A DNA stretch of 64,000 bases from Arthrobacter citreus (GTDB taxonomy: Bacteria > Actinomycetota > Actinomycetes > Actinomycetales > Micrococcaceae), in NCBI RefSeq assembly GCF_009192745.1, contig NZ_VTFV01000005.1, forward strand, positions 62,001 to 126,000. The letters are read 5' to 3'. Position numbers and translations under genes: made by a program. The notes below the pieces were generated by a model that was not told the DNA's origin, did not search any database, and was given only the letters and a program-made list of their open reading frames with translations. Positions 2,336 through 24,103 of the stretch are shown piece by piece. Position 1 is the first letter of the stretch. Each line of letters begins with the position of its first letter.

Positions 2336-4632
2336 CAGTGCCCCGCCGGTGCCGGTTTTTTGTCCTCCGGCAACGCGTCCCACTGCGCCTGGAGTTCCTT
2401 CTCCTGCGGCGTGGCCAGGAAGCCTGCCGGGGCGAAGGTCCGCGACGGCACGGCAGGATCCTCGGCGCTCGGCGCACCCCCGGAACGGTAGGAGCGAACC
2501 GAGGCAATGACGGCGGTGATGATCACGATGATCGCCAGGGTCACGAACAGGATGGACAGGACACCCTGCACGAAGGTGTTCCGGACCACCGCTTCCATGG
2601 CCTCAACGGTCTTGGCCGTGCCGAAGCTGGTCTCTCCGGCGTCCAGGGCGTTGCGGAACGCGTTGTGCTGCGCCCAGTAACCCACGGCCGGGACCGGGGA
2701 GAAGATCTTGTACATCGAGGCCGTGATCGTAACGACGGAGGCGAAGGCCAGCGGCAGCACCACCACCCAGATGTACTTGAAGACGTTCTTCTTGGCCAGG
2801 ATCGCCAGGCAGATGGCCAGTGCTATGGCCGCCAGCAGCTGGTTGGCAATGCCGAACAGCGGGAAGAGCGTGTTGATGCCGCCCAGCGGGTCCGTCACTC
2901 CCATGATCAGGATGGATCCCCACCCCGCCACCATGATGGCCGTACAGATCCAGGCGCCGGTGCGCCACCCCGTATCCCGGAACTTCGGCACGAAGTTCCC
3001 GATCGAGTCCTGCAGCATAAAGCGGGCAACGCGGGTGCCGGCGTCCACGGCGGTGAGGATGAACAGCGCCTCGAACATGATGGCGAAGTGGTACCAGAAG
3101 GCCATCATTGCCGGTCCGCCGATGAAACTCTGCATGATCATCGCCAGTCCGACTGCCAGCGTGGGCGCACCGCCGGTGCGCGAAACAATCGACTCTTCAC
3201 CGACGTCGGATGCCAGGGAGGTGAGCATGTCCGGGGTGAGGTTCACGCCCACCAGACCCAGTGAGTTCACGAATGCAACGGCGCCCTCCACGGTTCCGCC
3301 GGTGGCGGCTGCGGAGGAGTTCATGGCGAAGTAGATCCCGCGGTCCAGGGAGATCGCTGCGACCAGGGCCATGATGGCCACGAAGGACTCCATCAGCATG
3401 CCTCCGTACCCAATGAAGCGGGTCTGGCGTTCCTTCATGATCATCTTCGGGGTGGTCCCGGAGGAGATCAGGGCGTGGAACCCGGAGAGCGCTCCGCACG
3501 CAATGGTGACGAACAGGAACGGGAAGAGCGGCCCGGCGACCACGGGACCGTCATCACGCGAGGCAAACTCGCTGAACGCGGGAACACTGATCTCCGGGCG
3601 GACGATGATGATGGCGACCGCGAGCATGACGATCGTGCCGATCTTCATGAACGTGGAGAGGTAGTCACGCGGTGCCAGGAGCAGCCAGACCGGCAGGACG
3701 GCGGCGATGAAGCCGTAGATGATGATGCCCCAGGCAATGGTCACCCGGTCCAGGGAGAAAATCGCGACGCCCCATTCGGTGTCGGCGATCCAGCCGCCGC
3801 CTACGATCGCGAGCATCAGCAGGACAAAGCCGATGATGGAGACTTCGCTGACCTTTCCGGGGCGCAGGTAACGCAGGTACACGCCCATGAACAGGGCGAT
3901 CGGGATGGTCATGGCCACGGAGAAGACACCCCAGGGGCTCTCCCCGAGGGCATTGACGACCACCAGCGCCAGGATGGCAACGATGATGATCATGATGGTC
4001 AGCGTGGCGATCAGCGCAGCAGTGCCGCCGATCAGGCCGAGTTCCTCGCGGGCCATCTGGCCCAGGGAACGGCCGCCGCGGCGCATGGAGAAGAACATAA
4101 CCAGGTAGTCCTGGACGGCGCCGGCGAGGATGACGCCCACGATGATCCAGACAGTACCGGGCAGATAGCCCATCTGGGCGGCCAGGACGGGGCCTACCAG
4201 CGGGCCGGCTCCGGCGATCGCGGCAAAGTGGTGTCCATAGAGCACGCGCCGGTCGGTGGCGGCATAGTCTTTGCCGTCTGCCTTGTACTCCGCGGGCGTG
4301 GCCCTGCGGTCATTGGGCTTGAGCAGGTGCCGCTCGATGTACTTCGAGTAGAACCGGTACCCGATCAGGTACGTACAGACCGCTGCGAAAACGAACCAGA
4401 TGGCATTGACCGTTTCGCCGCGGACGATCGCCAGCATGCTCCAGCTGACGCCGCCGAGCAGGGCGATGCCTACCCAAACCGCGATTTTCAGCGGGGTCCA
4501 GGTGCTGCGGCCTGCTTCGTCGTCATCGACGGCTACCGGCGGGAGGTCCGGATCCTGGACGAGGATGTCTGCGTCCCCGGCTGCGGGGTCCGGACGGTCC
4601 GGATCCCTCCGTCGCCGATTCTCTTCACTCAT
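2335..4632 (-). CDS. cstA: Carbon starvation protein CstA family transporter
   Basis: A 765-residue polytopic membrane protein of the CstA family. The first about 45 residues are charged and Asp/Pro-rich (cytosolic). More than a dozen hydrophobic segments follow, with the conserved blocks GAGPLVGPVLAAQMGYLPGT and AGAVQDYLVMFFSMRRGGRS. The last about 60 residues are hydrophilic. Characterised family members import pyruvate (CstA, BtsT) or have been linked to peptide uptake during carbon starvation, so pyruvate or peptide uptake is expected here. It is the first gene of a two-gene operon with a YbdD-type partner. The start ATG at 4632 follows an AAAGGGG SD that lies next to, and partly inside, a stem (see the separate entry), which suggests translational control. 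Confidence 0.93.
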   Translation of the reverse strand: MSEENRRRRDPDRPDPAAGDADILVQDPDLPPVAVDDDEAGRSTWTPLKIAVWVGIALLGGVSWSMLAIVRGETVNAIWFVFAAVCTYLIGYRFYSKYIERHLLKPNDRRATPAEYKADGKDYAATDRRVLYGHHFAAIAGAGPLVGPVLAAQMGYLPGTVWIIVGVILAGAVQDYLVMFFSMRRGGRSLGQMAREELGLIGGTAALIATLTIMIIIVAILALVVVNALGESPWGVFSVAMTIPIALFMGVYLRYLRPGKVSEVSIIGFVLLMLAIVGGGWIADTEWGVAIFSLDRVTIAWGIIIYGFIAAVLPVWLLLAPRDYLSTFMKIGTIVMLAVAIIIVRPEISVPAFSEFASRDDGPVVAGPLFPFLFVTIACGALSGFHALISSGTTPKMIMKERQTRFIGYGGMLMESFVAIMALVAAISLDRGIYFAMNSSAAATGGTVEGAVAFVNSLGLVGVNLTPDMLTSLASDVGEESIVSRTGGAPTLAVGLAMIMQSFIGGPAMMAFWYHFAIMFEALFILTAVDAGTRVARFMLQDSIGNFVPKFRDTGWRTGAWICTAIMVAGWGSILIMGVTDPLGGINTLFPLFGIANQLLAAIALAICLAILAKKNVFKYIWVVVLPLAFASVVTITASMYKIFSPVPAVGYWAQHNAFRNALDAGETSFGTAKTVEAMEAVVRNTFVQGVLSILFVTLAIIVIITAVIASVRSYRSGGAPSAEDPAVPSRTFAPAGFLATPQEKELQAQWDALPEDKKPAPAGH

Positions 4633-6970: not shown

Positions 6971-9900
6971 ATGAGATTTACCCGATGGAGGGCAGCGCTG
7001 GGCACAGCACTGTCTGCCGGCCTGCTGGCCGCACCGCTGGCGGCACTGCCCGCCCACGCGGAGGAATTACCTTCCGGCGTCGTCATCAACGAGGCCTATC
7101 TGAGCGGGGGAAGCGCCAACGCCCCGTTCACCAACAAGTTCGTGGAGCTGTACAACCCCACCAGTGCTGCGGTCAGCCTGGACGGGTGGTCGCTGCAGTA
7201 CCGTGCCGCAGGCAGCACCGGAGCACCCACCGGAATCGGCCGGCTCTCCGGGAGCATCCCGGCAGGCGGTTACTACCTGGTCCAGGGCGCCAGCAACGGC
7301 ACCAACGGTGTTGCCCTGCCGGCAGCCGACGCAACGATTGGTGCGAGTTTCTCCGGAGCCTCAGGCACCCTGGTGCTCGCGAACCAGGCCGCCGCGGTGA
7401 ACCCGCTGCCGGCTGGTTCCGTGACGGACCAGCCCGGCGTCGTGGATCTGCTCGGCTACGGCAGCTCCAACACCTTCGAGACAGCTCCGGCGGCCGCCCC
7501 GGCCGGGAACTCCGATCCGAAGTCCCTGAACCGCACCGGAGTCGCGGACACCAACAACAACGCTGCAGACTTCAAGCTCAGCACCTCCGTCACACCGACG
7601 AACACCGCGGGAACGGGAACCGTACCCGACCCTGAGCCCACCGATCCCGAACCGACTGATCCGGAGCCCACGGACCCTCCGGCCGGCACGATTGCCATCG
7701 CGGAGATCCAGGGCACCGGCGAGGCCAGCGCACTGGTTGGCCAGAATGTCACCACGCGCGGCAAGGTCACCGCCGCGTACCCGACCGGCGGATTCAGCGG
7801 CTATTACATCCAGACCCCGGGCTCCGGCGGCGAACTGGATCCGGCCACCCACACAGCCTCGGACGGCATCTTTGTCTTCTCCGCAGCCACAGTCGGCCAG
7901 GTCGCAGTCGGGGACTATGTCGAGGTCACCGGAACCGTCGGCGAATACTTCGGCCTGACCCAGCTCACCGTTCCTGCAGGCAGTATGACCAAGCTCAGCG
8001 AAGCAGCCGAAGAGGTCAAGCCGGCCACGGTTGCCTGGCCCGCAACGGACGCTGAGCGGGAAACCCTTGAAGGCATGCTGCTGGCACCGCAGGGCGAGTT
8101 CACCGTCACGGACAACTACACCCTGAACCAGTACGCGGAAATCGGCCTCGCTGCCGGCAGCGAGACGCTGGTGCAGCCCACCGCCGTCGCACCGGTTGGA
8201 ACGCCGGAGCACGCTGCTGTAGTCGCCAATAATGCCGCCAGGGCGGTAAAGCTCGACGACGGCGCCACCACCAATTTCCTCTCGGCCGCCAACCAGTCCA
8301 AGCCGCTGCCGTACCTGACCTCCACCGATCCGGTGCGGATCGGGGCGCCGGTGTCCTTCACCACCAACGTGATCCTGGACTTCCGCAACAGCGCCTGGCG
8401 GTTCCAGCCGCTGGCCGAACTGACTCCCGCCAACGCGGAGACCGTCCAGCCGGCGTCGTTCGAAAACACCCGCACACCGGCACCGCAGAGTGTGGGCGGC
8501 AACCTGAAGCTCGCCGCCTTCAACGTGCTGAACTACTTCAGCACCACCGGTGATGACCTCTCCGGCTGCACCTACTACAACGACCGCTCCGGCGCTCCGG
8601 TCACCGTCCGCGGCGGCTGCGATGCCCGCGGCGCAGCCAACGAGGCGAACCTTGAACGCCAGCAGGCGAAAATCGTGGCAGCGATCAACGCCCTGGGCGC
8701 CGACGTCGTCGGCCTTATGGAGATTGAAAACTCCGCCGAACTGGGACAGGACCGGGACACTGCCCTGGCCCACCTCACCGAGGCGCTGAACGCAGCTGCA
8801 CCGGGAACCTGGGACTACGTCCGCTCCCCCGCAGCCCTGCCGGACGACGAAGACGTAATCCGCACGGCGTTCATCTACCGGACCGCCACCGCCGAACCGG
8901 TGGGAGATTCGGTGATCCTGAACGATGAGACCGTGTTCTCCAATGCGCGTGAACCGCTGGCCCAGGCCTTCAAGCCGGCCGGCGGGGAAGACAGCGAAAG
9001 TTTCGTGGCGGTCGCGAACCACTTCAAGTCCAAGGGATCTGCACCGTCCAGCGGAGAGAATGCAGACAACGGACAGGGCGGCTGGAATGCCGACCGCGTC
9101 CGCCAGGCACAGGCCGTGACCGCGTTCGCTGACACGGTGGCGCAGGACGCCGGAACCGAGCGGGTCTTCCTGCTGGGCGACTTCAACTCCTACGCCGCAG
9201 AAGACCCCATGCAGGTCTTCGCCGACGCCGGCTACCTGAACCTCGGCAAGGCCACCGGCAAGCACTCATACGCCTTCAGCGGCCTGGTTGGATCCCTGGA
9301 CCACATCCTGGCCTCGCCCGCTGCTGCGGAGGACGTCACAGGCACCGACATCTGGAACATCAACTCGGTTGAATCGATTGCCTTCGAGTACAGCCGGTAC
9401 AACTACAACGCCACCGACTACTACGCAGCGGATCCCTACCGTTCCTCGGACCACGATCCGATCATCGTTGGGATGGACCTGACCCCGGCCGAGGCCGAGG
9501 TCACCGACCTGAACCTGCTCAACATTAACGATTTCCACGGCCGGATTGACGCCAACACCGTCAACTTCGCCGGAACCGTCGAGCAGCTCAAGGCCGCCGC
9601 ACCCGAGGGCAGCTCGCTGTTCCTCTCCGCCGGCGACAACATCGGTGCATCCCTGTTCGCCTCCTCGGTACAGCAGGACCAGCCCACCATCGACGTCCTG
9701 AACGCGCTGGGCCTGCGGGCCTCGGCAGTGGGCAACCACGAGTTCGACGGCGGATTCGCGGACCTCACCGACCGTGTGGTTCCCGCCTCGGACTTCGAGT
9801 ACCTGGGCGCCAACGTCTACCTCAAGGGCACCACCACCCCGGCGCTGCCGGAGTACACCATCCTGGACGTGAACGGCGTCAAGGTGGCCGTGATCGGCGC

Positions 9901-11452
9901 CGTCACCGAGGAAACCGGAACCCTGGTTTCCCCCGGCGGCATCGCCACCCTTGAGTTCGGCGACCCGGTGGAAGCAGTGAACCGCGTCGCTGAGCGTCTT
10001 GAAGCCGAGGGCCTCGCGGACGTCATCATCGCCGAATACCACGAGGGTGCTGGCTCGGGAACACCCGACGGCGCCACCTTGGAGGAGGAGATCGCCGGCG
10101 GCGGTGCCTTTGCGGAGATCGTGACGGAAACCAGCGCACTGGTGGATGCCATCTACACCGGACACACCCACAAGCAGTATGCGTGGGACGCTCCGGTTCC
10201 GGGCGTTGAGGGCAAGACCCGTCCCATAGTCCAGACCGGTTCCTACGGCGAGTTCATCGGCCAGATCGAGCTGGCGTACAACGCCGAGACTGACGAGGTG
10301 CTCTCCTACACCGCAGGCAACGTGGCCCGTACCACCACGCCCGCGGCGGATCTGGTGGCAGCGTACCCCGCGGTTGCCGAGGTCAAGCGGATTGTCGACG
10401 CCGCACTGGCGTTCGCTGCCGAGGTCGGCAACCAGCCGATCGGCTTGGTCACGGCGGACATCACCACGGCCTTCGCCGGCACATCCCGCGATGACCGCGG
10501 CAACGAATCCACCCTGGGCAACCTGGTGGCAGATTCGCTGCTCTCCTCCCTTGGCTCACCCGAGCGCGGCGGGGCCGAAATCGGCGTCGTCAATCCCGGC
10601 GGGCTGCGGGCTGAGCTGTACTACGGTGAGGACGGCGTGATCACCTACGCCGAAGCCAACGCAGTATTGCCGTTCGTGAACAACCTGTGGACCACCACCC
10701 TCACCGGCGCGCAGCTGAAGTCGGTGCTGGAGGAACAGTGGCAGCCGGACGGAAGTTCCCGGACCTTCCTGGCACTGGGACTTTCCGACAACGTGACCTA
10801 CACCTACGATCCGGACCAGCCGCGCGGCTCCCGCATCCAGTCGGTCACCGTCAACGGTGAAGCGCTCGATCCCAACCGGGCCTACCGGGTAGGTACGTTC
10901 AGCTTCCTGGCCCAGGGCGGAGATAACTTCTCCACCTTTGCGCAGGGAACGGACACCCGTGACTCCGGACTGATCGACCGCGATGCGTGGATCAGCTACC
11001 TGCAGGCGAGCAGCCCGGTCTCCCCCGATTTCGCCCGCCAAGGTGTCATCGTCAAGGGTGCTCCCGCCACCGCGCAGGCCGGTTCCAGTGTCACCTTCAC
11101 GGTAGACAAGCTGGACCTGACCTCGCTGGGCAGCCCGGCTAACACCACGCTGGCCGTCAGCTGGGTCCCGGCCGGTGGAACCGCCGTCGCGCTGGGATCC
11201 GTTCCGGTAACGGCCGGTGCCGCCAGCGTCACCGCCGCCATTCCGGCGTCGGCGTCCGGCCCCGGTGCCCTGGTGCTGACCGCGGATCCCTCCGGCACCA
11301 CAGTGAGCATCCCGGTCACCGTGGATGAAGCACCGCAGCAGCCCACCTGTGTCCGTCCCGTCCCGCCGAAGAACTGGTGGGATGTCCGGGGCTGGCTCAA
11401 GTACGCGGTGGACTACGCCCGGTACCTGATCTGCACGATCAGCCGCGGCTAG
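6971..11452 (+). CDS. Secreted multidomain nuclease / 5'-nucleotidase (LTD-OB-EEP-UshA)
   Basis: A 1493-residue secreted enzyme with a Sec signal peptide (1-30, ending PAHA). Domains in order: a lamin-tail domain (about 33-195; VINEAYLSGG, KFVELYNPTS), a DPEPT repeat linker (about 218-235), and an OB-fold of ExeM/NucH nucleases (about 240-340). An endonuclease/exonuclease/phosphatase domain follows (about 510-835; LAAFNVLNYF, MEIEN, GDFNSY, SSDHDPI), then a metallophosphatase (about 840-1130; NINDFHGRID, GDNIGASLFA, GNHEFDGG, GHTHK). Next come a 5'-nucleotidase C-terminal domain (about 1150-1340) and an Ig-like region. The tail ends CTISRG without a sortase motif. It probably degrades DNA outside the cell and dephosphorylates the nucleotides, giving nucleosides and phosphate. 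An AAAGGAG SD supports the ATG. Confidence 0.93.
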   Translation: MRFTRWRAALGTALSAGLLAAPLAALPAHAEELPSGVVINEAYLSGGSANAPFTNKFVELYNPTSAAVSLDGWSLQYRAAGSTGAPTGIGRLSGSIPAGGYYLVQGASNGTNGVALPAADATIGASFSGASGTLVLANQAAAVNPLPAGSVTDQPGVVDLLGYGSSNTFETAPAAAPAGNSDPKSLNRTGVADTNNNAADFKLSTSVTPTNTAGTGTVPDPEPTDPEPTDPEPTDPPAGTIAIAEIQGTGEASALVGQNVTTRGKVTAAYPTGGFSGYYIQTPGSGGELDPATHTASDGIFVFSAATVGQVAVGDYVEVTGTVGEYFGLTQLTVPAGSMTKLSEAAEEVKPATVAWPATDAERETLEGMLLAPQGEFTVTDNYTLNQYAEIGLAAGSETLVQPTAVAPVGTPEHAAVVANNAARAVKLDDGATTNFLSAANQSKPLPYLTSTDPVRIGAPVSFTTNVILDFRNSAWRFQPLAELTPANAETVQPASFENTRTPAPQSVGGNLKLAAFNVLNYFSTTGDDLSGCTYYNDRSGAPVTVRGGCDARGAANEANLERQQAKIVAAINALGADVVGLMEIENSAELGQDRDTALAHLTEALNAAAPGTWDYVRSPAALPDDEDVIRTAFIYRTATAEPVGDSVILNDETVFSNAREPLAQAFKPAGGEDSESFVAVANHFKSKGSAPSSGENADNGQGGWNADRVRQAQAVTAFADTVAQDAGTERVFLLGDFNSYAAEDPMQVFADAGYLNLGKATGKHSYAFSGLVGSLDHILASPAAAEDVTGTDIWNINSVESIAFEYSRYNYNATDYYAADPYRSSDHDPIIVGMDLTPAEAEVTDLNLLNINDFHGRIDANTVNFAGTVEQLKAAAPEGSSLFLSAGDNIGASLFASSVQQDQPTIDVLNALGLRASAVGNHEFDGGFADLTDRVVPASDFEYLGANVYLKGTTTPALPEYTILDVNGVKVAVIGAVTEETGTLVSPGGIATLEFGDPVEAVNRVAERLEAEGLADVIIAEYHEGAGSGTPDGATLEEEIAGGGAFAEIVTETSALVDAIYTGHTHKQYAWDAPVPGVEGKTRPIVQTGSYGEFIGQIELAYNAETDEVLSYTAGNVARTTTPAADLVAAYPAVAEVKRIVDAALAFAAEVGNQPIGLVTADITTAFAGTSRDDRGNESTLGNLVADSLLSSLGSPERGGAEIGVVNPGGLRAELYYGEDGVITYAEANAVLPFVNNLWTTTLTGAQLKSVLEEQWQPDGSSRTFLALGLSDNVTYTYDPDQPRGSRIQSVTVNGEALDPNRAYRVGTFSFLAQGGDNFSTFAQGTDTRDSGLIDRDAWISYLQASSPVSPDFARQGVIVKGAPATAQAGSSVTFTVDKLDLTSLGSPANTTLAVSWVPAGGTAVALGSVPVTAGAASVTAAIPASASGPGALVLTADPSGTTVSIPVTVDEAPQQPTCVRPVPPKNWWDVRGWLKYAVDYARYLICTISRG

Positions 11453-11478
11453 CCCGCACCGGCTAGGCAATAACGGAG

Positions 11479-11517
11479 CGGCGCCGTCCGGACCTTCGAG
11501 TCCGGGCGGCGCCGTTT
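11479..11517 (+). terminator. Hairpin terminator of the nuclease/nucleotidase gene
   Basis: CGGCGCCGTCCGGA (11479-11492) pairs with TCCGGGCGGCGCCG (11501-11514) with one G-U pair, followed by a short TTT. Confidence 0.75.
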
Positions 11518-11609
11518 CTCGTTCAGCCCCGGCATCAAACGGTAGACACCCCATTTTTTGTGTGCCTATAGTGAAGGAAGTGCTTATTGCTGGACTGGGG
11601 GGCATCGGA

Positions 11610-12611
11610 ATGAAGGCGTCACGAGGAGCTTGGCGGGTTGTCCGTCCTGTGCTCCTTGGAGCCGCCGCAGCCGCTTCATGGCTGACTCTCTCGGCCACCG
11701 CTGCTTCGGCCGAACCAGTGACTGAACCGGATTCCCTTCTGGCAAGCGTGAGTTCCTCGGCTACGGGTCTCCTTGATGCCGCCGTTAATACCGTCGATCA
11801 GGTTACGGATGGCCTGCTGCCCGCCCCGCAGGCACCGGCCCAGGCCCCCGCTCCGGGTATTTCCCTGCCGGAGGCGCCTCGGCTGCAGCCAGCTTTACAT
11901 GGCGTAGTAACTGCCGCGGACGAGCTGGTACAGACAGTTCCGGTTGTGGGAACACTGGTCCCGGCGCAGACGCTGCCTGCTGCCACTGATCCCATCCTGA
12001 CTGCGGTCGACGACATCACCGGCTTTGCGGTAGAGACGATTCGCCCGACCGCAGACGGCCTCCTTGAGAGCCTGCCTCCCGTTCTCCCTCCAGCCTCCGA
12101 CGCCGGTACTGGCTTGGTTTGTCCCGATGGCCTGGGTGACCCCGCGGCTTCCGCCGCATCCGGATGCAGCGAAACCCCAATAACGCCAGCGATTCCGGAT
12201 ATCGGCCCGGCAGCAGAGCGTGAAGCCGACAGCGCTCGTTTCGCCGCACCGGCCTCTGAGCCGCACCCGGAGGAAGATGCCGCGGCCCCCTCGGCACTCG
12301 ACGCCGTGGCCAGTCACGGGGAATCGGCTGCGGTTACGGCAGCGTCCTGCGCTGAAGTCTTCCCGGAGTCCGCCCTGCCCGTGTCTTCCGCCCCGGATGC
12401 CGGGACACCAGGAGGATCACCGCAAAGCGGCCTTCTGCCGCTGGGCACCGGATCCTCCGTTGTGAGTCCTTCGGGGGCAGGTCCGCTGCTGCCCGGCTGC
12501 CTTTCCGGCCAGCATCTCAGGATTCCGGCGCTGGCTGCCCTGCCCGCTTCCACGGAGCTCATGAAAGCCCCCTCTCCAGTCTCACTGGACCACGAGGGAT
12601 TCCCTGATTAG
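11610..12611 (+). CDS. Secreted Ala/Pro-rich protein of unknown function
   Basis: A 333-residue exported protein. Residues 1-34 are a signal peptide (MKASRGAWRVVRPVLLGAAA, then a hydrophobic stretch ending ATAASA). The mature part is rich in Ala, Pro and Leu with short hydrophobic helices (GLLDAAVNTVDQVTDGLLPA, LVQTVPVVGTLVPAQTLPAA) and four Cys. There is no sortase motif or catalytic motif that I recognise. The ATG at 11610 was chosen over one 16 codons upstream because it begins the signal peptide and follows GGGGGG. It lies 84 bp before the chaplin-like gene on the same strand, and both mature proteins begin AEPVT. Related surface roles are therefore plausible but unproven. Confidence 0.72.
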   Translation: MKASRGAWRVVRPVLLGAAAAASWLTLSATAASAEPVTEPDSLLASVSSSATGLLDAAVNTVDQVTDGLLPAPQAPAQAPAPGISLPEAPRLQPALHGVVTAADELVQTVPVVGTLVPAQTLPAATDPILTAVDDITGFAVETIRPTADGLLESLPPVLPPASDAGTGLVCPDGLGDPAASAASGCSETPITPAIPDIGPAAEREADSARFAAPASEPHPEEDAAAPSALDAVASHGESAAVTAASCAEVFPESALPVSSAPDAGTPGGSPQSGLLPLGTGSSVVSPSGAGPLLPGCLSGQHLRIPALAALPASTELMKAPSPVSLDHEGFPD

Positions 12612-12695
12612 TTAGGCCTCTGTCCGTCTCCAGATGGACGAATGCCATTTGGGCCCCATGCGGCCCCATACCAATAACTTCTCAGGAGATTCGCT

Positions 12696-13787
12696 ATGCG
12701 TTGCATTATTCGACGTGGGCTGCTTGGCACCCTCTTTGCCGGAGGATTGCTGGCCCTTGGAACAACCGCGGCCAACGCGGAACCGGTAACCTCCGGATCC
12801 GACGGGCTCCTCTCCGGAACCCAAATCACCGCACCCATCACCATCCCCATCGACCTCGGCACCAACTCCCTGGCAATCCTCGGCGAAGCCAACACCGAGA
12901 CCACCAGCGAAGCCGGGACACCCGGGACGAACACTGCCACCGGAACACCGGCCGGCACCGGACCGGTAACCTCCGGATCCGACGGGCTCCTCTCCGGAAC
13001 CCAAATCACCGCACCCATCACCATCCCCATCGACCTCGGCACCAACTCCCTGGCAATCCTCGGCGAAGCCAACACCGAGACCACCAGCGAAGCCGGGACA
13101 CCCGGGACGAACACTGCCACCGGAACACCGGCCGGCACCGGACCGGTAACCTCCGGATCCGACGGGCTCCTCTCCGGAACCCAAATCACCGCACCCATCA
13201 CCATCCCCATCGACCTCGGCACCAACTCCCTGGCAATCCTCGGCGAAGCCAACACCGAGACCACCAGCGAAGCCGGGACACCCGGGACGAACACTGCCAC
13301 CGGAACACCGGCCGGCACCGGACCGGTAACCTCCGGATCCGACGGGCTCCTCTCCGGAACCCAAATCACCGCACCCATCACCATCCCCATCGACCTCGGC
13401 ACCAACTCCCTGGCAATCCTCGGCGAAGCCATCACCGAGACCACCACGCTGGGCACCGTGCCTCCAGTTGGTCCCCGTCCCGGCGACACCGACCCCCGTC
13501 CCGGAGACACGGATCCCTTCGTGATTCCCGCAGGGCCTCAGCCGAACGGCTCTACAGGAACTGAGCCGGCTCTTGCCTCCTCAGCTGCGGAGGAAACGAC
13601 CGGGCTCACCCGGATGTCCGCTGCCGAAACACCGCAGTGGACATCCGCGGCCACAGCTGCCGGTTCAGCGAGCGTCCTGGCTGACACCGGAGCGTCAGGC
13701 ACGGTCTTGCTGTGGCTGGCACTTCCGCTGATTGGAGCCGGGCTGGTACTCGTCGGTCGTGCAGGCCAGCAGACAGCCAACCTGTAA
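12696..13787 (+). CDS. Wall-anchored long-chaplin-like repeat protein (LADTG sorting signal)
   Basis: A 363-residue surface protein. A signal peptide (1-28, ending AANA) is followed by four tandem 60-residue units. Each unit holds the block SGTQITAPITIPIDLGTNSL, then AILGEA, then a Thr/Gly/Pro-rich spacer. The block follows the chaplin pattern (SG....P-I-hP....N-h-h-hG). The C-terminus carries LADTG, a hydrophobic helix (VLLWLALPLIGAGLVLVG) and Arg, which is a class-E-type sortase signal. Streptomyces long chaplins ChpA-C have the same plan with two repeats. Cys is absent from the repeats here, as in ChpE. It is probably an amyloid-like, surface-active coat protein covalently fixed to peptidoglycan. 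The SD AGGAG supports the start. Confidence 0.82.
   Translation: MRCIIRRGLLGTLFAGGLLALGTTAANAEPVTSGSDGLLSGTQITAPITIPIDLGTNSLAILGEANTETTSEAGTPGTNTATGTPAGTGPVTSGSDGLLSGTQITAPITIPIDLGTNSLAILGEANTETTSEAGTPGTNTATGTPAGTGPVTSGSDGLLSGTQITAPITIPIDLGTNSLAILGEANTETTSEAGTPGTNTATGTPAGTGPVTSGSDGLLSGTQITAPITIPIDLGTNSLAILGEAITETTTLGTVPPVGPRPGDTDPRPGDTDPFVIPAGPQPNGSTGTEPALASSAAEETTGLTRMSAAETPQWTSAATAAGSASVLADTGASGTVLLWLALPLIGAGLVLVGRAGQQTANL
12782..13446 (+). repeat. 180-bp tandem repeat inside the chaplin-like gene (3.7 copies)
   Basis: Units start at 12782, 12962, 13142 and 13322. The three full copies and the partial fourth are identical base for base, except T for A at 13432. The repeat ends near 13446. 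The period is a multiple of 3, so copy number can change without breaking the frame. Confidence 0.97.
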
Positions 13788-13799
13788 ACCGGTGGATGA

Positions 13800-13830
13800 G
13801 CCGAGGTTCCGGTGCCGCCGGGACCTCGGC
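13800..13830 (+). terminator. Possible terminator after the chaplin-like gene
   Basis: GCCGAGGT (13800-13807) and ACCTCGGC (13823-13830) form an 8-bp stem. A TTTTT run follows about 10 bp later, so the arrangement is not canonical. Confidence 0.45.
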
Positions 13831-13912
13831 CTTCCCGCCGTTTTTCGCAACGGCTGCCAGACACCAGGTGGTCCGGACCGGTCACGCGGACACCCCGCAC
13901 TGAGGCCCCGCC

Positions 13913-15664
13913 CTACTGCCGGGGGTCGGGGTTCTTCGGATCCTCGGATCCCATGTCGGCTGCGCCGAGCACACTGGCCACGGGGTTGTCGGTCTTCTCA
14001 TTGGCCCGCGGCTTGAGCTCCGGGTGGTGCAGGTCCAGTGCCGGCCGCTCGGACCGGATCCTGGGCAGCGACGTGAAGTTGTGCCGCGGCGGCGGGCAGG
14101 ACGTGGCCCATTCGAGTGAGCACCCAAAACCCCACGGATCGTCCACTTCCACTTTCTTCCCGCGCCGCCAGGTCACGTAGACGTTCCAGAAGAACGGAAT
14201 CATGGAGAACCCGAGAATCAGGGAACCGATGGTGGAGAGCTGGTTCATCGCCGTGAAGTTGTCCTCCACCAGGTAGTCCGCATAGCGCCGCGGCATGCCC
14301 AGCACACCGAGCCAGTGCTGGATCATAAAGGTCAGGTGGAAGCCCAGGAACAGCAGCCAGAAGTGGATCTTTCCCAGCCGCTCGTTGAGCATCTTGCCGG
14401 TCCACTTTGGCCACCAGAAGTAGAACCCGCCGAACATCGCGAACACCACCGTTCCGAAGACCACGTAATGGAAATGGGCCACCACAAAGTAGGTGTCTGA
14501 AACGTGGAAGTCCAGCGGCGGTGAGGACAGGATGATGCCGGTCAGCCCGCCGAACAGGAACGTGATGAGGAATCCGAGGGCCCACATCATGGGCGTCTCG
14601 AAGGTAATGGAACCGCGCCACATGGTGCCGATCCAGTTGAAGAACTTCACGCCGGTGGGCACGGCGATGAGCATGGTCATGATCGCGAAGAACGGCAGGA
14701 ACACCTGCCCGGTGACGTACATGTGGTGTGCCCAGACGGTCATGGACAGGCCCGCGATCGCGATCGTCGCAAAGATCAGGCCCTTGTAGCCGAAGATCGG
14801 TTTGCGGCTGAACACCGGCAGGATTTCCGAGATGATCCCGAAGAACGGCAGCGCGATGATGTAGACCTCCGGATGGCCGAAGAACCAGAACAGGTGCTGC
14901 CAGAGGATGGCCCCGCCGTTCTCCGGATCGAAGATGTGGGCGTCGAACCTGCGGTCCGCTCCCAGGGCGAACAGCGCGGCTGCCAGCGGCGGGAACGCCA
15001 TCAGTACCAGGATGGCGGTGACCAGCGTGTTCCAGGTGAAGATCGGCATGCGCCACATGGTCATGCCGGGAGCGCGCATGCAGATGATGGTGGTGACGAA
15101 GTTGACCGAGCCGAGGATGGTTCCGAATCCGGACAGCGCCAGGCCAAAGACCCACAGGTCCCCGCCGATACCGGGCGAGAACGTGGTGTTGGACAACGGT
15201 GCGTACGCCGTCCAGCCGAAGGATGCCGCTCCCTGCGGGGTCAGGAACCCTGAGATCGCAATCAGGGAGCCGAAGAGGAAGAACCAGTAGGCCAGGGCGT
15301 TCAGGCGCGGGAACGCGACGTCCGGCGCCCCGATCTGCAGCGGCATCATCACGTTCGCAAAGCCGGCGAAGAGCGGGGTGGCGAACATCAGCAGCATCAG
15401 TGTGCCGTGCATGGTGAACAGCTGGTTGTACTGCTCGCGGGAAGAGACGATTTCAAGTCCCGGCTGGAAGAGCTCGGCCCGGATGATCAGGGCCATGACC
15501 CCGGCCAGGCAGAAGAAAATGAAGGACGTGATCAGGTACAGGTAGCCGATCTTCTTGTGGTCGGTGGTGGTCAGCCAGTCGACGACGATGCGGCCGCGGG
15601 AGACCGGCACGACGCGCGGCGGTACGGTTGTTCCTTCATCTGCCGAATACTTCAACGTAGACAT
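13913..15664 (-). CDS. ctaD: Cytochrome c oxidase subunit I (aa3 type)
   Basis: A 583-residue heme-copper oxidase subunit I with about 12 membrane helices. It carries the heme and copper ligand motifs of the family: MHGTLM (low-spin heme His), FFGHPEVY (CuB His and the cross-linked Tyr), AHHMYV (CuB His pair) and [10 protein letters not shown] (heme ligands). It oxidises cytochrome c and reduces oxygen to water while pumping protons. The hydrophilic C-terminus (about 60 residues) is longer than in minimal homologues but common in actinobacteria. Neither ctaC nor ctaE lies beside it: hut genes lie upstream and the chaplin-like gene converges downstream. It may be an extra copy, or a ctaD separated from its partners. 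A hairpin CGTAGG-ACCC-CCTACG lies about 80 bp before the start. Confidence 0.95.
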
Positions 15665-23865: not shown

Positions 23866-24103
23866 CAAACCCTCGGTGACATAACGTCGTTTAGCCTCCA
23901 TTTACGCAAACCCTCGGTGACTTGACGTCGCTAAAGTGGGCCCAAAGCGACGTTTACTCCCCGAAGGTTTCGGCAGCCAGGCCCAAAACGACGTTTACTC
24001 CCCGAAGGTTTCGGCAGCCAGGCCCAAATCGACGTTTACTCCCCGAAGGTTTCGGCAGCCAGGCCCAAAACGCTTATCTCCCCGAAGCTTGAAGGCCCCT
24101 GCA
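23866..24103. repeat. Intergenic array of 41-bp repeat units in two orientations
   Basis: Units begin every 41 bp. At 23866 and 23907 the units start CAAACCCTCGGTGAC. At 23940, 23981, 24022 and 24063 the units start GCCCAAA and contain GACGTTTACTCCCCGAAGG, the last one degenerate. The left units resemble the reverse complement of the right units (AAACC-TCGG--GA...AACGTCGTTT), so the array is a head-to-head inverted cluster. Its centre folds as ACGTCGCT/AGCGACGT. Each right unit also holds CCGAA-GGT-TTCGG. There are no unique spacers. Confidence 0.85.

Follow-up and report, generated by a model that had tools for sequence, protein, structure and literature searches.

Chaplins are familiar as proteins that serve aerial growth. 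The chaplin domain is described as carrying two conserved cysteines, with ChpE and the C-terminal domain of ChpB as exceptions, and three GN motifs (PMC7766987, PMC13251363). Class E sortases are the enzymes recognising LAXTG (PMC5148588), and two consecutive basic residues are reported to be required in the tail of their substrates (PMC13251363). CwpA and CwpB of the filamentous Actinoplanes missouriensis are class E sortase-anchored hydrophobic surface proteins from outside Streptomyces which, according to their authors, lack chaplin domains (PMC13251363). A chaplin-like protein was noted in 2013 in the nonsporulating rod-coccus A. chlorophenolicus, and attachment was proposed as a possible older chaplin role (PMC4255298). 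At the level of gene control, SecM, MifM, VemP, ApcA and ApdA are encoded by upstream ORFs whose products have a conserved C-terminus and either an export signal or a membrane segment, and they control secA, secDF or yidC; in SecM and one new member a stem-loop hides the next Shine-Dalgarno site (PMC10987492).

Here, we analysed a 64,000-nucleotide stretch of Arthrobacter citreus DNA (the window), in which a partner gene at 11610-12611 is followed by the gene of a chaplin-like repeat protein at 12696-13787. The original prediction had described the second gene only, as encoding a sortase-anchored protein that might form an amyloid-like coat in a probably non-filamentous actinobacterium. The observation was confirmed and the interpretation supported in part, while the partner gene and an RNA helix between the two genes, both absent from that prediction, carry more information. 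As for the chaplin-like protein, it represents a diverged version of a kind already known. It resembles CwpA and CwpB in being a hydrophobic surface protein with a putative class E sorting signal outside Streptomyces, and the A. chlorophenolicus protein in being chaplin-like in a nonsporulating rod-coccus; the latter is only named in the review, whose relevant text mentions no partner or RNA element (PMC4255298). A literature search, with most subscription journals outside its coverage, found neither a chaplin partner nor RNA coupling.

The repeat protein and its relation to long chaplins

The features of the repeat protein gene are as follows.

12696..13787, + strand: chaplin-like, LAxTG-bearing repeat protein of 363 aa (ORF and PF03777 match)
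12696..12779, + strand: signal peptide, residues 1-28 (by eye; N-terminal stretch kept in relatives)
12765..12902, + strand: chaplin-like unit 1 (PF03777, 31.6 bits)
12948..13082, + strand: chaplin-like unit 2 (PF03777, 28.9 bits)
13128..13262, + strand: chaplin-like unit 3 (PF03777, 28.9 bits)
13308..13427, + strand: chaplin-like unit 4 (PF03777, 26.3 bits)
12783..13446, + strand: tandem array with a period of 180 bp and 3.7 copies, copies 1-3 identical (repeat scan)
13677..13784, + strand: C-terminal sorting region with LADTG, hydrophobic stretch and short tail (sequence)

The ORF starts with ATG at 12696 and its stop ends at 13787. The signal peptide and the LADTG wall-sorting signal that had been predicted are both present, the former with an apparent cleavage at ...ANA/EPV (assigned by eye) and the latter at 13677-13691, followed by the hydrophobic stretch and then a tail that contains a single Arg. 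The first three copies of the array are identical over 180 bp, and the fourth matches for 124 bases with one change; identical copies of this length could be miscounted in a short-read assembly. A. luteolus, the sister species, has nearly identical units at unequal spacing (192, 183 and 165 bp), which points to homogenisation or recent expansion.

The model ChpA-C (PF03777) matches the whole protein in four stretches with E 3e-25 and 88.3 bits (cut-off 21). Copies 1-3 are identical and therefore not independent evidence, and the scores of single units are the fair measure. In a search of the genome DNA each unit alone scored above 21 bits, as given in the list, so that the four predicted repeats with a chaplin block stand, and the possibility that the resemblance is an artefact of identical copies was rejected. 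All four matches lie in the gene 12696-13787, and no further PF03777 match was found in the 3.55-Mb genome. In nine many-chaplin genomes, which we take to be Streptomyces, from a phylum sample of 346 genomes the matches reach about 71-105 bits, with one at 43, and the units in the window are thus distant relatives of these domains. A domain from a many-chaplin genome (GVLSGNVVQVPIHVPVNICGNTVNVIGLLNPAFGNTC) and a unit from the window (GLLSGTQITAPITIPIDLGTNSLAILGEANTET) share the alternating strand, whereas the cysteines and the GN motifs are gone from the latter. This strand is also apparent statistically, as the beta-amphipathic alternation of the unit exceeds that of its own shuffles (p 0.003); the value for the linker was p 0.91.

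In comparison with the long chaplins ChpA-C of Streptomyces coelicolor, the protein is alike in its PF03777 match, its signal peptide, its alternating strand segment and, with LADTG, its LAxTG signal of class E sortases. It differs in having four units (3-10 in relatives) instead of two, in the lack of any short chaplin gene in the genome, the kind alongside which long chaplins act within one organism, and in the partner gene beside it, which is absent from all nine sampled many-chaplin genomes. It was predicted that the repeats have no cysteines, and none was found in any of the four units; nor do the units carry three GN motifs, since the corresponding sequence reads SGT...GTN... and lacks GN. 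The protein is a PF03777 member related to long chaplins and, by the features compared, not a canonical chaplin, because both cysteines and the GN motifs are absent and no other chaplin gene was found.

Only two weak matches, far below their cut-offs, were obtained for the repeat protein in NCBIfam, and a profile of the units matched no solved structure at E up to 10. The structure prediction proposed at the outset yielded a beta-rich model of two units, in agreement with expectation, but its low confidence (mean pLDDT 57.6) makes it a weak test. As a model of the partner (first half helical, pLDDT 58.7) is of low confidence as well, neither supports a firm claim about fold.

Sortase and wall anchoring

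A class E sortase had been suggested as a gene to look for, and it was found: of the five sortase genes in the genome, one was assigned to class E by its NCBIfam model, which it matches at 253 bits (cut-off 160), and a comparison with the PDB linked it to S. coelicolor SrtE1 (5cuw) with E 4.9e-27. A genome without this enzyme could accordingly be rejected. For the other four sortases the class F model is the best, with 165, 164, 163 and 126 bits, all below its cut-off of 166. While the tail of the protein in the window has one Arg, that of the A. luteolus protein has RR. A C-terminal LAxTG is present in 68 of 79 loci from the best 80 of 143 relatives; the 11 loci without it comprise three from Microbispora, six at or near a contig edge, and L085 and L143, which are apparently frame-shifted. 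The repeat protein is likely to be anchored to the wall.

Relatives and distribution

The case is not an isolated one: a scan found 143 relatives, and the A. chlorophenolicus protein had already been published (PMC4255298). The idea that the gene is a rarity was rejected. The host is, as proposed, a member of the Micrococcaceae type, close to Arthrobacter luteolus. The best 80 of the 143 relatives were kept and represent 79 distinct loci, a set biased towards similarity, in which each locus has 3-10 units. These loci span Arthrobacter, Pseudarthrobacter, Paenarthrobacter, Microbacterium, another member of the Microbacteriaceae, Cryobacterium and Microbispora, genera that are mostly non-filamentous, and a Pseudarthrobacter chlorophenolicus strain is among them as locus L080.

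Within the family, PF03777 itself matched in 22 of 395 genomes (5 of 32 genera), and a profile built on 17 units of the window and its relatives in 65 of 395 (8 of 32 genera); in both the family sample of 395 and the phylum sample of 346 genomes, the initial screen scores only a small number of candidates in each genome, and matches may have been missed. Within the genus itself the repeat protein occurs in 2 of 29 genomes.

The lack of cysteines extends well beyond the window. None of 521 units from 76 Micrococcales loci among the best 80 of 143 relatives contains a cysteine, as compared to 21 of 24 units from the three Microbispora loci. Of the GN motifs, the middle GN is kept in 241 and the first SGN in 14 of the 521 Micrococcales units. 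The three Microbispora loci (L098, L104 and L106) have cysteines in 7 of 8 units, an LTGMN-like C-terminal region, not LAxTG, and a short upstream ORF ending in SPD. In L017, from family genome G274, cysteine-free units come first and cysteine-bearing ones later in the same chain, and this protein is possibly an intermediate between the two kinds.

That the protein is an ordinary long chaplin with aerial surface activity as in Streptomyces could be argued from the PF03777 match and the LAxTG signal. We regard this as most improbable, given that the units in the window have neither cysteines nor GN, that the gene is the sole chaplin gene of its genome, that the relatives come mostly from genera that do not form filaments, and that a partner is present here while none of the nine sampled many-chaplin genomes has one. 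Cysteine-free, multi-unit LAxTG versions in non-filamentous relatives allow one to ask what role the chaplin domain had earlier than aerial hyphae or independently of them.

The partner gene

11610..12611, + strand: partner gene, encoding an exported protein of 333 aa that ends ...SPVSLDHEGFPD-stop (relatives by profile)

The start codon of the partner was assigned by eye with the help of an alignment with relatives. At its N-terminus the protein has an apparent export signal (hydrophobicity and eye); its long middle part is variable and its C-terminal end conserved. It gave no match in Pfam or NCBIfam. Its length is 312-423 aa among the aligned homologues and 176-179 aa in Microbispora. With an iterated profile started from this protein, 75 of the 79 loci (best 80 of 143 relatives) proved to have a partner homologue immediately upstream in the same orientation. 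Together with one further ORF in L118 this amounts to 76 profile matches, every one of which ends in Pro-Asp-stop (74 SPD, 1 APD and 1 FPD), the partner in the window being the one with FPD. The further ORF, at 3058-4359 of the Microbacterium locus L118, is a second partner-like ORF ending in SPD. The three Microbispora loci had no profile match, yet their upstream ORFs end in SPD, and in L133 no upstream ORF was found within its available stretch. Besides the pair, the commonest flanking ORF was present in 45 of the 79 loci and the next in at most 15, in a clustering from which ORFs overlapping the pair were left out.

Units and partner are strongly associated across the family. Among the 395 genomes 54 have both, 11 units only, 44 the partner only and 286 neither (Fisher p 1.9e-28), so that units lack a partner by profile in 11 of 65 genomes and the partner lacks units in 44 of 98. 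In the genus of the window the partner is found in the same 2 of 29 genomes as the repeat protein, and the other 27 have neither. In the phylum sample of 346 the partner is absent from the nine genomes with many strong chaplins and present in 3 of the 4 other genomes with PF03777; its eight matches there are those three, a further strong one in G736 and four that are weak, including one with internal stops. The partner represents a family of proteins, unmatched in Pfam and NCBIfam, that is encoded next to such genes in different families of the Micrococcales.

The partner is also found before other genes. Stretches of DNA with a partner gene were retrieved in 17 cases, 12 of which came from genomes of the family that lack units. 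Downstream of the partner were a complete LAxTG repeat protein that is not chaplin-like in nine, chaplin-like units in two, a repeat protein without a clear LAxTG in one and no clear ORF in two, and three were cut by a contig end. The stretches with non-chaplin-like repeat proteins (L196-L200, L202-L207, L209 and L211) include, for example, AAVDVNLGLG repeats; these proteins mostly have LAxTG where their end is present, and RNA pairing of the kind described below is predicted for them too.

An RNA helix between the two genes

The predicted structure between the genes consists of the following elements.

12595..12614, + strand: 5' strand of the closing helix, made up of the last codons of the partner, its stop (12609-12611) and 3 nt (MFE and centroid fold)
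12615..12646, + strand: inner hairpin 1 (fold; inner hairpins also in the folds of relatives)
12651..12666, + strand: inner hairpin 2 (fold)
12675..12695, + strand: 3' strand of the closing helix, containing the Shine-Dalgarno core AGGAG at 12684-12688 (fold and pairing probability)

The fold of 12588-12698 (MFE and centroid) has an energy of -41.6 kcal/mol and a z of -3.78, and none of 200 shuffles was as low. The AGGAG core in the window pairs with the end of the partner with a mean probability of 0.80. In many Microbacterium loci the relation is visible directly, as the codons for S-P-D and the stop (TCTCCTGACTGA) are the reverse complement of the next Shine-Dalgarno region (TCAGTCAGGAGA).

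This structure was compared among 79 elements, namely that of the window and those of 78 loci from the best 80 of 143 relatives, 56 of which are non-redundant. Pairing between the Shine-Dalgarno core and the partner end had a mean probability above 0.5 in 54 of these 56. Folding against dinucleotide shuffles gave z below -2 in 53 of the 55 elements short enough for the test, with a mean of -4.27; L074 and L143 reached only -1.7. The 17 further stretches around partner genes gave a similar picture. A start was found by a strict rule in 8 of 17 and by a looser rule in 8 of the remaining 9, with none in L210, and the core was paired likewise in 15 of the 16 with a start, the exception being L213 (0.21).

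The two arms were then exchanged between loci in an alignment-free test whose permutations leave the relatedness among loci in place. Own arms paired with a mean of -25.5 kcal/mol as compared to -18.8 kcal/mol for crossed arms, and none of 20000 permutations was as low; the z was -14.2 overall and -12.2 within stop-codon groups (56 loci). When only bases after the stop and 5' of the Shine-Dalgarno core were used, z was -10.3 (56 loci, 0/20000), and for the 38 loci with distinct arms this restricted test still gave -7.4 (0/20000). Positions +2 to +6 after the stop have three or four types of Watson-Crick pair, and in L118 a CCCCC end lies opposite a GGGGG site. By these computations the helix is conserved and its arms co-vary. 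Weaker cases are L098 of Microbispora, with a core pairing of 0.01 and the last of 56 ranks in the arm-swap test, L116 with a core pairing of 0.45, and L143 and L103, both low in the arm-swap ranking. In a sequence-only MAFFT alignment of 18 Micrococcaceae elements the 3' arms do not line up, and RNAalifold on this alignment failed to predict the helix, giving 3 pairs at about 0 kcal/mol.

RNA of high GC content folds readily, and the Shine-Dalgarno site and the partner end are conserved in any case, so one could imagine a plain operon in which GC-rich sequence and two conserved regions yield a helix without any coupling. This explanation is highly improbable, as folding exceeds that of dinucleotide shuffles, own arms outperform swapped arms outside the coding and Shine-Dalgarno bases, and several pair types occur just after the stop. 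Alternatively, the intergenic element could act as a riboswitch or as a leader bound by a protein: its closing helix would do the switching, and the inner hairpins, arranged around a junction within it, would contain the sensor. Short stretches near the junction are indeed similar by eye in part of the Micrococcaceae set. The inner parts are, however, highly variable in both sequence and length, the 5' strand sits within a translated ORF, and an Rfam scan of 12550-12760 gave no match at E up to 5; such a leader is accordingly improbable.

Proposed coupling of the two genes

The partner (11610-12611) and the repeat protein gene (12696-13787) are probably one expression unit, coupled by the helix and encoding two exported proteins, the second of which would be anchored by sortase. 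A shared transcript would carry both genes. A pattern scan of 11300-14000 yielded a single promoter-like site, which precedes the first gene, and no terminator-like site at all, so that neither kind of site lies between the two genes.

11543..11572, + strand: promoter-like site upstream of the partner, with TAGACA and TATAGT 18 nt apart (pattern scan)

This is one site against a mean of 0.2 in shuffled sequence, which is no evidence for a function. On the transcript, the Shine-Dalgarno site of the surface protein would be locked by long-range pairing with the final codons and the stop of the partner. Ribosome footprints have established that a terminating ribosome covers the stop and the last codons. 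Since the 5' strand would be covered in this way, translation of the partner should release the Shine-Dalgarno site, and the surface protein could then be translated. Translational coupling, as deduced from this anatomy, is most likely the job of the helix. The signal peptide would then direct export of the surface protein, and the class E sortase would attach it to the wall, where its amphipathic repeats probably act as a cell coat or in adhesion. A role in coating, adhesion, wetting or amyloid formation is suggested by the relation to chaplins. The partner and the co-varying helix together offer a concrete and testable mechanism of control for a surface protein.

The conservation at the end of the partner may have more than one cause. 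Because the 5' strand of the helix consists of the last codons and the stop, part of the conservation of SPD is at the level of RNA. The Pro codon is nevertheless CCC, not CCT, in 20 of the 56 loci, with its third base unpaired in 16 of these 20. That Pro is retained despite the unpaired base suggests that the peptide end is selected beyond the RNA, and makes an arrest peptide of the SecM type conceivable.

A sharper form of the coupling model is hence that the partner is an export-sensing arrest peptide in the style of SecM, MifM, VemP or ApdA. Ribosomes would pause at SPD-stop unless the export machinery pulls on the nascent partner, and a paused ribosome would keep the helix open, so that synthesis of the surface protein would follow the state of export. 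The layout of the partner is in keeping with this, in that an N-terminal export signal, a variable middle and a conserved end are followed by a structure hiding the Shine-Dalgarno site. Features of this kind have served to identify arrest peptides, and the candidates listed include some that end in NSP-stop and NAP-stop (PMC10987492). The partner has the export signal, a spacer of more than 30 residues and the conserved C-terminus used in such searches, and the masked site of the next gene is predicted in 54 of 56 loci from the best 80 of 143 relatives, as in SecM and its new counterpart. The invariable Pro-Asp end of the 76 profile matches in the same set, and the Pro codon pattern described above, which favours selection at the peptide level, point in the same direction.

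The motifs RAGP and HAPP are those of known arrest peptides. Within the final 60 residues, RAGP occurs in 5 and HAPP in 4 of the 79 partners (best 80 of 143), but the two motifs are not family-wide, being confined by eye to one subgroup of Microbacterium and absent from the partner in the window; a RAPP-like motif marks RAPP-like families and not every arrest peptide. In Microbacterium L112, L122, L124, L127 and L144 the tail of the partner reads RAGP...DE(HAPP/HAPA)...SPD-stop. Against the arrest model, the gene that follows encodes a repeat surface protein and not secA, secDF or yidC, and most partners are bigger than the small ORFs of the published screen (PMC10987492). Stalling is putative here, and we consider the arrest model unlikely on balance. 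If true, it would mean a monitoring substrate that controls a surface coat and not the export machinery.

In its widest form one may speculate, with slightly more confidence though still tentatively, that the pair is a two-gene surface module of the Micrococcales, perhaps also of the Streptosporangiales, in which an export-sensing partner pauses the ribosome at Pro-Asp-stop and opens the lock on an exchangeable LAxTG repeat protein, chaplin-like or of another kind, whose synthesis would then depend on how the partner is translated and exported.

Surroundings of the pair

Upstream of the pair, at 6971-11452 on the + strand, lies the gene of a large exported protein that combines lamin-tail, ExeM/NucH-type endonuclease and 5'-nucleotidase domains in one chain. 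The order of this gene and the pair is the same in A. luteolus. A second tandem array in the window, at 23939-24087, has a unit of 41 bp in 3.7 copies with 93% matches, and its surroundings are apparently non-repeat.
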